The notes below the pieces were generated by a model. That model searched no databases. It was not told the origin of the DNA and saw only the letters and a list, made by a program, of their open reading frames with translations. Position numbers and translations under genes: made by a program. Of a stretch of 57,691 bases of DNA, positions 32,915-42,589 are shown piece after piece. The stretch comes from an uncultured SAR86 cluster bacterium (GTDB lineage: Bacteria > Pseudomonadota > Gammaproteobacteria > Magnimaribacterales > AG-339-G14). Each line of letters begins with the position of its first letter. The first letter of the stretch is position 1. The stretch spans positions 1 to 57,691 of the forward strand of contig CABZES010000008.1 of the NCBI GenBank assembly GCA_902524805.1, written 5' to 3'.

Positions 32915-34417
32915 TTACTTTGCTTGCTTAATTTTTTCTAGCCAATCTTGATATTTGAGATAAGGATAAACTTTTCCAGGAATGATTGTACTGATTTCCT
33001 CAAACGTTCTACCAAGGCCGCAAGCATGGCTTCTGTCTATTATTTCAGGATATTTCTCCACAGCGTATTCAAATGAACTGGCACTCATCCAATAAAAATG
33101 AGTAACATTCTTTATTTCCTCAGGAAGTTCTTTTTTTATCAGCCTATAAGTTGGAATAATTTCTTTATCTCCCTTAGGCGCAGCTTCATGAGAGATTTTA
33201 TACCATTTTATTTTTTTTAAGATATTTTCAGGAGGAGACTCCATTTCACCCAAGCTATCTGAAGTACCATTTATCCATATGCCTTTGCGTGAAAGAGACA
33301 GCCACGTCTTAATTCCACTGGTCCAAATAGTATTGGAATCTTTTATGTTATTAAAACTATCAAGTCCATTGCTTCGGCTTACGTAAATTCCTGAATTATT
33401 TATGTCTTTCAATGCTCTTGAAGAATCTTCAATAGTTTCTCGGTCAAAAAAAGAAGAATTTTCTAGCTTTTCAGGATAAATACTTTGAATTTTTGAAAAC
33501 GATTCATCTGTGAATTTTGCTTTAGGAAAAAAACTGTTTTCATTTAGTCTAATTCCTTCCTCTGTTTCTCCTTTTAGATTTAACACTTCTCCCATTTCCA
33601 GAATTTGATGGCTTACTCCAATTTTTTGGTGACAACCTCCGCCATATTCTTTTAGTATTTTTCTTTCTTTTTCTACTGATTTAAAAACTTCCTCATTATT
33701 AATTTTCGTTAATATTTCTAAAATTACTTCATCGTTTGATCGTGATTCAATTGCTAAGGCACCTTGAGCTGGAGCTGATGGATTCTCTGACAAGGGCAAG
33801 ACCATCCAATTTAATTCTTTAAAAAAACTCAAAACTTCTTTCTTTTCTTTTAAAAATTTTGTTGAGTCGCCATTTAATATTCTATCTAATGCTGCTTTTG
33901 CCATTACAAGACCATCGACATCAGATCCTATTAATTTTTTTATTCGCGTTGAGATATTTCCACGAATATTTAAAAATTTAATTTTTTTTGGTTGCGATGG
34001 TAAAGCTTTGGGAAGAAAATTTGAAAGATTTTCTTTGCGCCTAGGAGAAGAGGTATATATGGAAATATCATCCTTTGGAATTGAATTTTTTTTAAAAATT
34101 AATATATCTCTCAGATCTGCTCTTTCGATAGTTGCAGAAATTTTTGTTCCTTCTTCCATCTCAACTGGCAAATCTTTCCAAGAATGCACAGCTAAGTCGG
34201 CATTTTTTTCAATCAACTCATTTCTGATATCATTGGTAAAAACTCCGATTTCAGGCATTTTGTTTAGCGGAGTGTTTAGATCGATATCACCCTGAGTGTC
34301 TTTTTGTATATATTTAATTTCCATTTTTGGAAAATATTTTAAAATTCTTTTGCCTACAATCTCAGCTTGAATTTGAGCCAAAGGACTTTTTCTGGAAATT
34401 ATTGTTAGTGTTTTCAA
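32915..34417 (-). CDS. hemC: Hydroxymethylbilane synthase fused to a divergent HemD-like domain
   Basis: Residues 1-310 are HemC, which polymerises four porphobilinogens: ISRKSPLAQIQAE, VHSWKDLP with catalytic Asp82, SSPRRKEN, RGNISTRIKKL, SAPAQGALAIE, and Cys262 in EYGGGCHQKIG for the dipyrromethane cofactor. Residues about 340-500 resemble uroporphyrinogen III synthase (IYVSRSNGLDSF at the start; FYWMSASSFEYAVEKYPEIIDRSHACGLG at the cosubstrate-pocket side) but are strongly divergent. Length 500 fits a HemC-HemD fusion, which would form and cyclise the tetrapyrrole in one polypeptide. A TTG start at 34417 gives a normal HemC N-terminus; no ATG lies close by. No separate hemD is in the window. 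Confidence 0.87.
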   Translation of the reverse strand: MKTLTIISRKSPLAQIQAEIVGKRILKYFPKMEIKYIQKDTQGDIDLNTPLNKMPEIGVFTNDIRNELIEKNADLAVHSWKDLPVEMEEGTKISATIERADLRDILIFKKNSIPKDDISIYTSSPRRKENLSNFLPKALPSQPKKIKFLNIRGNISTRIKKLIGSDVDGLVMAKAALDRILNGDSTKFLKEKKEVLSFFKELNWMVLPLSENPSAPAQGALAIESRSNDEVILEILTKINNEEVFKSVEKERKILKEYGGGCHQKIGVSHQILEMGEVLNLKGETEEGIRLNENSFFPKAKFTDESFSKIQSIYPEKLENSSFFDRETIEDSSRALKDINNSGIYVSRSNGLDSFNNIKDSNTIWTSGIKTWLSLSRKGIWINGTSDSLGEMESPPENILKKIKWYKISHEAAPKGDKEIIPTYRLIKKELPEEIKNVTHFYWMSASSFEYAVEKYPEIIDRSHACGLGRTFEEISTIIPGKVYPYLKYQDWLEKIKQAK

Positions 34418-34518: not shown

Positions 34519-35769
34519 ATGAACTATAAAAAATTTTTTTCTGATGAACTCACATCTCTGAAGTCTCAAGGTCTTTATAGAAAATTTAGAGAGATAAATA
34601 GAAATAAGAAAAATTTTCCTAAAGCGACTGAAAGGTTCGAAGGCAAGGAAAGAGCAGTCGAAGTCTGGTGTAGTAATGACTATCTTAACTTGAGCCAACA
34701 TCCTGTCGTCATAATGGAGTCCACGAAGGTAACTAAAGAATTAGGGACTGGTTCTGGAGGAACTAGAAATATATCTGGTACATCAACATATCATGCTGAT
34801 TTAGAGAAAAGTCTTGCAGAGCTTCATAGCAAGGAAGCAAGTCTATTATTTCCTTCAGCTTATACTGCAAATCAATCGACACTGTGGACTCTTTGTAAAA
34901 AACTCGGTGGATGCGAAGTATATTCAGATGAGTTGAATCATGCTTCAATGATTCAAGGAGTTAAAAATGCTAATGTACCAACCCACGTATTTAGACATAA
35001 TGATACGAACCACTTAGAAGAATTACTTAAAACCTCTAATGCCAATACCCCAAAAATAATTGTGTTTGAATCTCTTTATTCTATGGAAGGTTTAAGATCG
35101 CCTATTAAGAAAATAGTATCTCTTGCTAAGAAATATAACTGTCTTACATACTTAGATGAAGTTCACTCAGTAGGTCTTTACGGACCCGAAGGAAGAGGTA
35201 TTGCTGCAGAATTAGGTGTTTCAGATGAAATTGATATTATTAATGGAACTCTTTCAAAAGCTTTTGGTCAGATGGGCGGATATGTCGCAGCCAGTAAGGA
35301 TATAATTGATTTTATAAGAAGTTTTGCTCCTGGTTTTATTTTTACTTCATCTGCAAATCCAAGCATTGCAGCAGCTAGTTTAGTAGCAATAGATCTTGCT
35401 AAAGGAGCTGGCTTACTTAGAAAGAATATAAAAAATAATTCTGATTTAATAAGACAAGGTCTAAGAGATTCTGAAATTCCGTTTCTTGAAAATGACAGTC
35501 ACATCGTTCCCATCCATCTTTACGATCCTGACCTTTGTAAAGAAGCAGCCAACGTTTTAATAAATGAGCATGGTATTTACATTCAACCAATTTTCTATCC
35601 AACAGTGCCGAAAGGAGATGAAAGATTTAGAGTTACAATCACTCCTAAACACTCTGCGGAAGATATTCAGACTTTTGTTGGAGCACTAGATCAAGTCTGG
35701 TCCAAATTAAATCTTAAACGTGCTCAAAAAGAGAAGTCCAAAGTAAATAAGATTTCTAACTTATTTTAA
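34519..35769 (+). CDS. hemA: 5-aminolevulinate synthase
   Basis: PLP enzyme that condenses glycine with succinyl-CoA to 5-aminolevulinate, CoA and CO2. The start ([24 protein letters not shown]...FPKAT) is specific to ALAS among alpha-oxoamine synthases. [61 protein letters not shown] and [13 protein letters not shown] with PLP Lys247 follow, then SYAPGF-like [11 protein letters not shown] and [18 protein letters not shown]. Similarity to alphaproteobacterial ALAS is high by eye. Most Gammaproteobacteria instead use GtrR/HemL, so this gene is probably acquired. It has a leader of about 75 bases and a strong terminator. Confidence 0.95.
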
Positions 35770-35793
35770 GATATCATTTAACCCGATTCGCTT

Positions 35794-35822
35794 TATCTCA
35801 ATGCCTCTAAAACATTGAGATA
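35794..35822. repeat. Stem-loop H1, related to H3
   Basis: A perfect 10-base stem, TATCTCAATG / CATTGAGATA, encloses a 9-base loop starting CCTCTA. It lies 24 bases after the hemA stop. The core ATCTCAATGCCTCTA recurs in H3. Confidence 0.7.
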
Positions 35823-35872
35823 GGCCCATCCCAGTTTTTAAAAAAATTTTCTAAATTCTAATTTTGGAAGAC

Positions 35873-35904
35873 AAAAAATATCCCGCTCAGACGGGATATT
35901 TTTA
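35873..35904. terminator. Bidirectional rho-independent terminator for hemA
   Basis: A 12-base perfect stem AAAAATATCCCG / CGGGATATTTTT with loop CTCAGA is followed by T-rich sequence on both strands. It is the clearest intrinsic terminator in the window. On the plus strand it ends hemA transcription about 100 bases after the stop; on the minus strand it can end the receptor transcript. Confidence 0.88.
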
Positions 35905-35954
35905 TTTGATTCTTTTACAGTCAGGGCTCAAAGCTCTCCAACCTTGAACCCTGT

Positions 35955-35987
35955 CTAATCTCAATGCCTCTACTTCATTAAGGTTAG
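35955..35987. repeat. Stem-loop H3, related to H1
   Basis: CTAATCTCAATG pairs with CATTAAGGTTAG (one mismatch and one G-U if transcribed on the plus strand) around a 9-base loop again starting CCTCTA. The left arm and loop share ATCTCAATGCCTCTA with H1, while the right arms differ, each largely complementary to its own left arm. Confidence 0.6.
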
Positions 35988-36014
35988 ATTTTTCAATCCA
36001 GACTTAGGGGGTGA

Positions 36015-36060
36015 TTCTTGAGGAAGCTCTATATAAATGGAAGTGAAACTTCCTCAAGAA
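36015..36060. repeat. Stem-loop H4 downstream of the receptor gene
   Basis: A perfect 12-base inverted repeat (TTCTTGAGGAAG / CTTCCTCAAGAA) with a 22-base loop lies 9 bases past the receptor stop. The loop contains GGAAG, which can pair alternatively with the same CTTCC arm. No U-tract follows on the minus strand, so it is not a classical terminator; it may protect the receptor mRNA 3' end. Confidence 0.6.
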
Positions 36061-36069
36061 AAATCTAGA

Positions 36070-38220
36070 TTAGAAACTGTAATTTAAAGAAACTCTTGCG
36101 TTCAATTCCTCTCCAACACTTACTTGGTGAGTAGAATGAGCGTGAGGGAAATAAACAGTATCAGTTAAGTTTTCGATATTTAACTGAACTGAAAGATCGT
36201 CAGAAAGCGTCCAATATCCGGCAGCATCCCATCTAGTGTAATCGGGAAGTATTCCGCCTGATCTTGCGCCATCTTTAGCTTGAGATTCACCTTGAGAGGT
36301 AAATCCAATTCCCCAGCCAAATGTGTCATTTACTTGATAGTTAATCCACCCAGAAAGAGTAGATTCAGGAATTTCTTTAGCCTGAGTCCCTGGAGTGGTT
36401 TCTCCATCAAAGTTTGCATAACCAAATGCGGCGTATAATTGATCGCTAATTTGACCTTTAAGCTCAAGCTCAAAACCATCAACAGATAAATTAGTTGTTT
36501 CGGCAGTTCCTTCACCATCTGCTCTACCTACAACGTTGTCACTATCGAAATAATTGGCAGTGAACATAAGATCTGGATTTATTTCCATTTTGAAACCAAT
36601 TTCAGTATTTTCAAAAGTATCTGGGTCAGTTATTGCTGCGCCAGCACTTTGTTTCTTATATTGCTCTCCAGCTTTAGGATAAAAACTTTCGCTGTAAGCA
36701 ACGAAGAAAGAAACATTCTCTTGAGGCTTCAAAGTTAATCCAGCTCTTGGTGAGAAAATATCTCTATCATTCACTGTTGTTGCACCGGAAGCTGTTCTAG
36801 TATCGTTAACTGTTAATTCCATTTGGTCGAATCTTCCACCGATAGTAACTAACACATTTTCATTAATGCTTATCTGGTCCTGAAGTGAAATTGATGTAAT
36901 TTCTACGTCAGTTTCTGTTCTAGCATAAAAAGCACCTGCTTGATCAAAGTGAGTAGTGTTGGCAACGCCGTCGCTATTTTGGGAAAAATCCATTGGTCTC
37001 CCTAGAGTGAATGTTTCCTTATTAGATTTTTGTCCACTACTAGCAGTACAGTCGGCAGCATTATCAAGAGCAGAATTTCCATCGTGTGAAGAAAAACACT
37101 TATAGTAACGTTGGTTTTTATTTTCTGTTTCAAGAACTTCTAAACCAGCTAAAATAGTATGAGTAGCTGTTCCAATCTCTAACTCATTAACCCAGTCAAC
37201 GTTAAAAATTGTGCTTTCTCTTGCAGTGACATCTAAGTAACCATCGGCGTCAATTGTTCCTACAGTAGGAGTACTAGCAGCTGCTGGAGCGTACTTAGAA
37301 ACATATAAATTTTGATACATTTTATCGAAATCGTTCATAGTTAATGAAACTATTACTCTACTTGTATCAGATAGTTCGCGAGTCAATTTGGCTCTAATTA
37401 TGTCTGCTTCAGTAGTTTGTGTATTTATCTCAGGAGTTCCAAAGACGTAATCTTTCAATTCTTCTACTGGTAGATAGCTTGTTAAGCTTGTTGGAATACC
37501 GCGATCAATGAATCTTTCATGATCTACATATTCATAAGATAAATCTAATGTGGAATCAGCATCTAATTCAGTCCTTGAAACAATGTTGAATCCAAGTCGG
37601 TCACCATCAAAGAAGTCTCTGTGATTTTCCAATGTATCGCTATGCAACATAAGTCTTATAGCAGTGCTATCGGAAGTGTCCATGTTTGTGTCAATCGCTA
37701 CATCGAATGCACCGAAACTATCTATCCCAGCATCAACAGATCTAAAAGATTCGCCAATTACTGGTTTCTTTGTAACACGGTTAATTAGTCCACCTCTGGC
37801 GTCACGACCGAATAATAAAGCGTTAGCGCCCTTAATTACCTCTACCTGCTCAATATTGTATAAAGAACGGTAGTATTGAACGTCGTCTCTAGCGCCATCT
37901 AAATAAAAGTTTGCAGTAGATCTTACACCTCTAAAAACCATAGCATCTCTATGACCTTCTCCTTGAGTAGTGTTTACCCCTGGTGTGTAACGAACTATAT
38001 CTCCTAGCTCTCTGTATCCTTTTTTCCTAATTTCATCATCTGTAATAATAGAAACTGATTGCGGAACATTTAAAACAGGAACAGGAGTTTTAAAAGCAGT
38101 AACTTGGTCAGATTGTAAGACCTTACCTTTAACTTCTAGTTCTTCTGTATCTTGTGCAAATAATAAACTGGAGGAAATAAGTCCTACAGTAATAAAAATA
38201 CCAATTAAAAGTTTTTTCAT
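36070..38220 (-). CDS. TonB-dependent ferric-siderophore receptor
   Basis: Outer-membrane gated barrel importing an iron-siderophore complex using TonB energy. Signal peptide about 1-22 (ends LLFAQ). The plug domain follows (about 45-155) with VPVLNVPQSVSIITDDEI, LGDIVRYTPGV, FRGVRSTANFYLDGARDDVQYYRSLYNIEQVEVIKGANALLFGRDARGGLINRV. The rest is a beta-barrel ending in the Phe-terminated strand ARVSLNYSF. Length is 716. The plug pattern is that of FhuA/Fiu/FecA-type siderophore receptors rather than vitamin B12 or polysaccharide receptors; the ligand is not identifiable. Two Fur boxes precede it. No siderophore synthesis genes are nearby, so it likely uses foreign siderophores. Confidence 0.92.
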   Translation of the reverse strand: MKKLLIGIFITVGLISSSLLFAQDTEELEVKGKVLQSDQVTAFKTPVPVLNVPQSVSIITDDEIRKKGYRELGDIVRYTPGVNTTQGEGHRDAMVFRGVRSTANFYLDGARDDVQYYRSLYNIEQVEVIKGANALLFGRDARGGLINRVTKKPVIGESFRSVDAGIDSFGAFDVAIDTNMDTSDSTAIRLMLHSDTLENHRDFFDGDRLGFNIVSRTELDADSTLDLSYEYVDHERFIDRGIPTSLTSYLPVEELKDYVFGTPEINTQTTEADIIRAKLTRELSDTSRVIVSLTMNDFDKMYQNLYVSKYAPAAASTPTVGTIDADGYLDVTARESTIFNVDWVNELEIGTATHTILAGLEVLETENKNQRYYKCFSSHDGNSALDNAADCTASSGQKSNKETFTLGRPMDFSQNSDGVANTTHFDQAGAFYARTETDVEITSISLQDQISINENVLVTIGGRFDQMELTVNDTRTASGATTVNDRDIFSPRAGLTLKPQENVSFFVAYSESFYPKAGEQYKKQSAGAAITDPDTFENTEIGFKMEINPDLMFTANYFDSDNVVGRADGEGTAETTNLSVDGFELELKGQISDQLYAAFGYANFDGETTPGTQAKEIPESTLSGWINYQVNDTFGWGIGFTSQGESQAKDGARSGGILPDYTRWDAAGYWTLSDDLSVQLNIENLTDTVYFPHAHSTHQVSVGEELNARVSLNYSF

Positions 38221-42512: not shown

Positions 42513-42589
<77 letters not shown>

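Follow-up and report, generated by a model that had tools for sequence, protein, structure and literature searches.

Hairpins between hemA and a TonB-dependent receptor gene

The spacer beyond hemA in the genome of an uncultured SAR86 cluster bacterium contains two similar hairpins, and the question is whether they belong to a functional RNA or to a repeat family, and which of the neighboring genes they go with. The window analyzed is the whole stretch of 57,691 nucleotides (positions 1 to 57,691 of contig CABZES010000008.1, assembly GCA_902524805.1). Three covariance models were used, representing the helix of genus g3 (R1), the hairpin (R2) and the P1/P2 helix together with hairpin H3 (R3). 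The features of the locus are as follows, with E-values from R2, whose training set, like that of R3, included the window copies:

34519-35769, plus strand: hemA, 5-aminolevulinate synthase (ALAS; NCBIfam TIGR01821, above cut-off), convergent neighbor of the receptor gene
35794-35822, hemA side of the terminator: hairpin H1 (R2 match, E 2.7e-6; diverged counterpart in genome G006)
35874-35903, either strand: intrinsic terminator with T-runs on both sides
35922-35953, minus strand: hairpin A (R2 match, E 8.4e-5; C.A mismatches on the plus strand are G-U pairs on the minus strand)
35955-35987, minus strand: hairpin H3 (R2 match, E 3.6e-6; compensatory pairs; inside an R3 match)
35995-36071, minus strand: P1/P2 helix (inverted repeat I2; minus-strand folds in 21 sequences)
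36071-36064 and 36002-35995, minus strand: arms of P1 (compensatory pairs)
36060-36049 and 36026-36015, minus strand: arms of P2 (compensatory pairs between subclades)
36003-36013, minus strand: C-rich bulge CACCCCCUAAG, unpaired, on the 3' side of P1/P2
36070-38220, minus strand: TonB-dependent receptor (TBDT) of siderophore type (Pfam Plug and TonB_dep_Rec)

The spacer (35770-36069) separates two convergent genes, hemA ending at 35769 on the plus strand and the receptor gene at a stop codon at 36072-36070 on the minus strand, and the terminator at 35874-35903 is common to both transcripts. The fold of the whole spacer has a z of -4.4 relative to shuffles, none of 200 of which was as good. 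For the receptor the nearest NCBIfam family is TIGR01783, with a score slightly under the cut-off. Genes for an ABC transporter substrate-binding protein, permease and ATPase (substrate not settled) lie upstream of it in the same direction.

H1 is formed by TATCTCAATG-CCTCTAAAA-CATTGAGATA, with 10 perfect pairs and a 9-nt loop that reads CCUCUAAAA on the plus strand and UUUUAGAGG on the minus strand. H3 is formed by CTAATCTCAATG-CCTCTACTT-CATTAAGGTTAG, with 12 possible pairs and a loop of 9 nt whose minus-strand sequence is AAGUAGAGG. With a spacing of 163, the two have 15 identical bases in common (ATCTCAATGCCTCTA), and identity over 25 nt is 84%; an exact repeat of at least 15 bases arose in 2 of 3,000 dinucleotide shuffles of the 300-base spacer. 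Coordinates, folds and the 15-base identity thus agree with the original prediction, which described two related hairpins with a common sequence and a 9-base loop in each. It also gave H3 one mismatch and one G-U pair, which is true on both strands by way of different pairs, since the plus strand has one C.A mismatch and one U.G among its possible pairs and the C.A becomes a G-U on the minus strand, which counts among the indications of the strand discussed below. Hairpin A, which had been overlooked, belongs to the same family as H1 and H3, and its loop contains GGAGAG on the minus strand. An R3 match spanning 35955-36071, H3 included, has an E-value of 1.1e-22, again with the window copy among the training sequences.

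Two further observations concern the heme genes of the window. C4-pathway ALAS (hemA) is present here in a gammaproteobacterial SAR86 genome. Close relatives of the protein were found in genomes named SAR86 cluster bacteria, while the nearest non-SAR86 relatives found are mostly from Alphaproteobacteria (45-52% identity), which suggests acquisition of hemA by horizontal transfer. The hemC gene (32915-34417) has a product of 500 aa in which the hydroxymethylbilane synthase match is limited to the N-terminal ~280 aa; the C-terminal part would therefore extend the enzyme, perhaps as a heme-pathway domain fused to it.

Strand and origin of the RNA

The strand of the RNA was assessed by folding 17 homologous hairpins separately on each strand. 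G-U pairs numbered 23 on the minus strand versus 3 on the plus strand, and the folding energy was lower on the minus strand in nearly all of the hairpins, with hairpin A as the clearest case. The P1 helix has eight wobble pairs on the minus strand and none on the plus strand, a count that is biased because P1 pairs were chosen from minus-strand folds. Given the surplus of G-U pairs and the better energies, the RNA most likely runs with the receptor gene and against hemA.

An independent match is provided by genome G003, whose sequence was not used in building R2. In this genome the R2 match (E 9.7e-7) lies directly behind the receptor stop codon, and the gene past the terminator is not hemA. 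Because the element follows a TBDT there without hemA as a neighbor, we place H3 and A in the 3' UTR of the receptor gene, not in that of the convergent hemA. The original prediction that H1 and H3 flank the hemA terminator stands as regards position, since the terminator does lie between them, but its link to hemA fails for H3 and A, the RNA being assigned to the other strand. The G-U count and G003 both speak against a plus-strand RNA, either a hemA 3' UTR or an anti-Shine-Dalgarno RNA of the 'cuckoo' type.

Read on the minus strand, the receptor stop codon is followed by the P1/P2 helix with its C-rich bulge, then by H3, A and the terminator. P1 begins within the stop codon for both receptor types, so a conserved separate promoter is unlikely. 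Unrelated receptors are unlikely to have a promoter in common within their coding sequences, which makes the receptor mRNA the most likely source of the RNA.

The bulge retains a CCCCU core in most g1 and g3 sequences, mostly as UCUCCCCCU in g3 and as ACCCC(C)UAA in G003-G005. By eye, the minus-strand terminator loop of locus L056 (G005), CCCCCUAAG, repeats the motif of this bulge, and the terminator loop in G004 (L057) reads CUCCCUAAG. Several other features were considered and set aside. Intramolecular pairing between bulge and loop (UCUCC/GGAGA) is possible in g3 and has no g1 counterpart by eye. Small ORFs in the P1/P2 region are short and vary in frame between relatives, and an extension by stop-codon read-through shifts frame between G000 and G006 (both by eye). 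The element has no tRNA match that would point to a tRNA-like remnant, and the only tRNA found lies at 42516-42589. Separately, in some g3 genomes receptor and element are separated by a 30-aa ORF preceded by a ribosome-binding-like AGGAGAG (L125:2886-2978, minus strand), and a similar short ORF between receptor and RNA element is seen by eye in L124.

Conservation and covariation among SAR86 relatives

In an alignment of the 17 hairpins, AGAG in the minus-strand loop is invariant, two-sided changes occur in 9 of the 10 stem pairs, and 91.6% of cells are paired. The covariation score was reached by none of 500 shuffles and every slide was worse, for sequences that are few and related and with shuffle controls that leave phylogeny in. 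Many stem positions differ between the G003-G005 and G000-G006 subclades. Over the aligned stretch, the spacer on the receptor side shows 88-90% identity in G001, G002 and G006, and in G004 and G005 the same positions hold hairpins with other stems; those of G005 are CTGAACTCAGAG-CCTCTCCCG-CTTTGAGTTCAG and CAAACCCAATA-CCTCTGCCG-TATTGGGTTTG. Genus g2 has one hairpin only, with a T-run behind it on the minus strand. P2 changes between subclades from GAGGAAG/CTTCCTC to GAGGCGG/CCGCCTC, replacing A-U, A-U by C-G, G-C, and two-sided compensatory changes between subclades also occur in P1 and H3.

Conservation extends beyond that of the neighboring genes. Between the window and G001, G002 and G006, the 151-nt element is 90-91% identical, compared with 75% for the receptor coding sequence, 78-83% for hemA and 43-49% for receptor fourfold sites, so that the non-coding element exceeds both flanking genes. 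Hairpin(s) and helix are kept in 7/8 genomes of the window genus and in 5/7 of a second genus. The hairpins are limited to two genera (g1 and g2) and the P1/P2 part to three: in g3, P1/P2 has a nearly invariant core ~100 bases past the receptor stop codon, without H3 and A. Absence from relatives with the same neighbors, which the original prediction regarded as telling against it, was seen in one exception, so that this check speaks for the prediction. The exception is the g3-type genome represented by L127/L148, in which the element was not found though hemA and the receptor are present. Neither G007 nor the hemA locus of genus g4 gave a match to the element. Homologous hairpins in relatives, compensatory stems, a constant loop core and conservation above that of the flanks support the claim of a functional RNA, and comparison of the relatives demonstrates selection on structure and loop.

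Receptor exchange

The receptor facing hemA is homologous to that of the window in most element-bearing relatives (identity is 80% for L142 of G006 and 44-50% for the tested genomes of g2 and g3). In L144 (G005), the receptor next to hemA is 28% identical over 164 aa to that of the window, and its 3' element is homologous; the G003 receptor, judged by its last residues, is also of a type other than that of the window. Homology breaks at the stop codon, the 3' element being homologous and the coding genes unrelated beyond the general receptor fold. On this comparison the element is independent of the identity of the receptor gene, and the retention of a 3' UTR while the coding gene is exchanged is strong sequence evidence for a function of the 3' UTR itself.

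The exchange is an observation in its own right: in the G004/G005 subclade the receptor opposite hemA was swapped for an unrelated TonB receptor (L144:4552-6741 versus window 36070-38220). In genus g4, an FTR1-family iron permease (PF03239; L137:2744-3652, minus strand) faces hemA, which is again an iron gene.

Possible functions of the element

These results make it reasonably likely that the structured minus-strand RNA is a lineage-specific 3' UTR of the TBDT mRNA that works post-transcriptionally, and the element is probably regulatory. We infer a post-transcriptional role, action in trans and a binding partner. The transcript would run from the receptor stop codon through the P1/P2 helix and its bulge and one or two AGAG-loop hairpins to the terminator. 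Its role would be that of a regulatory RNA derived from the 3' UTR, or of a site on the iron-uptake mRNA that binds a protein or RNA. The stems would serve as scaffolds, and contact would be made by the conserved unpaired parts, namely the AGAG loops and the C-rich bulge. Because the receptor gene lies downstream of co-directional ABC transporter genes, the RNA would report expression of the uptake locus.

The main rival is an ordinary 3' end, in which stable hairpins and terminator would shield the receptor mRNA and end convergent transcription, with no specific partner involved. The convergent genes with their common terminator, and the T-run of its own behind the single g2 hairpin, are consistent with this. 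However, a barrier needs neither an invariant AGAG loop nor a conserved unpaired C-rich bulge; it does not call for conservation above that of coding sequence, and the element survives receptor exchange. We therefore regard an ordinary 3' end as possible but doubtful.

The second rival concerns H1, the least conserved hairpin, which sits in the hemA 3' spacer, beyond the terminator as seen from the receptor. In G006 its loop region AATGCCTCTAC is retained and the stem sequence has changed; the hemA sides of G005 and G004 have an A-like and H3-like stretch (by eye), and G001, G002 and g2 are without a separate H1. The simplest reading is that H1 arose by duplication of the inner hairpins, with the copy landing on the hemA side of the terminator and decaying in part. 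Since the hairpin copies have the same orientation and the genes are convergent, the hemA and receptor 3' UTRs are complementary. The hemA-side plus strand and the receptor-side minus strand match perfectly over 15 nt in the window (H1 versus H3), over 15 nt with two U-G pairs in G006, 14 nt with one U-G in G005 and 10 nt with G-U in G004. In each of the four genomes the duplex energy between these 3' UTRs surpasses 299-300 of 300 shuffles. In most combinations the duplex match (z) is better within the G000/G006 and G004/G005 subclades than between them. The hemA 3' UTR (H1, plus strand) might thus bind the receptor 3' UTR (H3/A, minus strand) through their loops and couple heme synthesis to iron uptake, a messenger-messenger pairing that all of this complementarity would fit. 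However, H1 is missing in G001, G002 and genera g2 and g3, hemA is not adjacent in G003, the G004 match is short, and direct duplication of a hairpin is by itself enough to create such complementarity, which could be a by-product. We consider messenger pairing unlikely, and hold similarly slim expectations for a mutual loop-loop switch between hemA and receptor mRNAs that would operate free of Hfq in SAR86, with the hemA-side copy tracking the receptor-side loops in each subclade.

A protein partner is a further possibility. Hfq (PF17209) was found in 0/40 family genomes, 13 near-complete ones included, with control genomes positive, which makes a classical Hfq-dependent sRNA unlikely. CsrA (PF02599) is encoded in 34/40, including the genome of the window and 13/13 near-complete genomes. 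The element might therefore bind CsrA, its GGA hairpin loops titrating the protein or allowing it to control the receptor mRNA. The loops of hairpin A do carry GGA (GGAGAG, GGGAGAG), but GGA is absent from the loops of H3, H1 and g2, and the invariant part is AGAG. As in CsrA-titrating RNAs, there are several hairpins with purine-rich loops in genomes that encode CsrA; unlike in those RNAs, GGA is not present in each hairpin loop. A CsrA-binding element is thus improbable; hairpin A, unlike H3 and H1, might be a partner of CsrA.

A dispersed repeat or mobile element family, the other possibility raised by the original prediction on the strength of two similar copies within 165 bases, is very improbable, since R1, R2 and R3 gave no second strong locus in any genome (genomes partly incomplete) and the weak extra matches that were opened lie mostly inside long open coding frames. 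Across 40 genomes, some of them incomplete, this is the sole locus that R2 matches strongly; R3 matches at this locus in 7/8 genomes of the genus (E ~1e-22), and R1 matches 14 g3 loci. Rfam 15 at gathering score gave no match in the element, either in the window or in six related loci. In a relaxed search all matches were far under their cut-offs, among them a rimP leader (28.3 bits versus a cut-off of 47) that we take to be a chance overlap with the terminator.

Comparison with known systems

Constant loops on differing stems are also a feature of the ar14 or 'cuckoo' sRNA family of Alphaproteobacteria (NfeR1), in which tandem hairpins have constant loops carrying CCUCCUCCC, an anti-Shine-Dalgarno motif, and strongly differing stems (PMC10746234). 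The SAR86 element likewise has constant loops (AGAG) on stems of different sequence. However, CCUCCUCCC does not occur in its plus-strand loops (CCTCTACTT, CCTCTAAAA, CCTCTCCCG and CCTCTGCCG), which have CCUCU, and on the likely strand the loops end in AGAG(G), roughly the complement; bacterial class and gene context also differ. Without this motif, and with the opposite strand as the likely one, the SAR86 element is not, by its sequence, a member of the family as described in PMC10746234.

Closest as a functional class are the 3'-UTR-derived bacterial sRNAs, such as SroC and SkatA (reviewed in PMC9438474). Like these, the SAR86 element would be a structured 3' UTR that ends in an intrinsic terminator, and it is conserved more than its host gene would require; its placement in the 3' UTR up to the mRNA terminator follows from sequence evidence (G-U pairs, position and G003). 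Such sRNAs are defined by a separate stable RNA fragment, made by processing or from an own promoter, and the SAR86 element is a candidate for this class. The classical cases have Hfq or ProQ as partner, and Hfq was not found in the SAR86 family. A small-RNA theme around iron and TonB-dependent receptors is also found in Caulobacter, where pulse expression of the iron-starvation sRNA RusT lowers TonB-receptor mRNAs (PMC11005374). RusT is a separate intergenic, Hfq-bound transcript, whereas the RNA of the SAR86 family, in which Hfq was not detected, would be part of a receptor mRNA as its 3' UTR.

SAR86 is among the most abundant uncultured bacterial groups of the ocean. Should the element act as a regulator, this group, in which no Hfq was found, would possess a conserved non-coding element tied to iron uptake.
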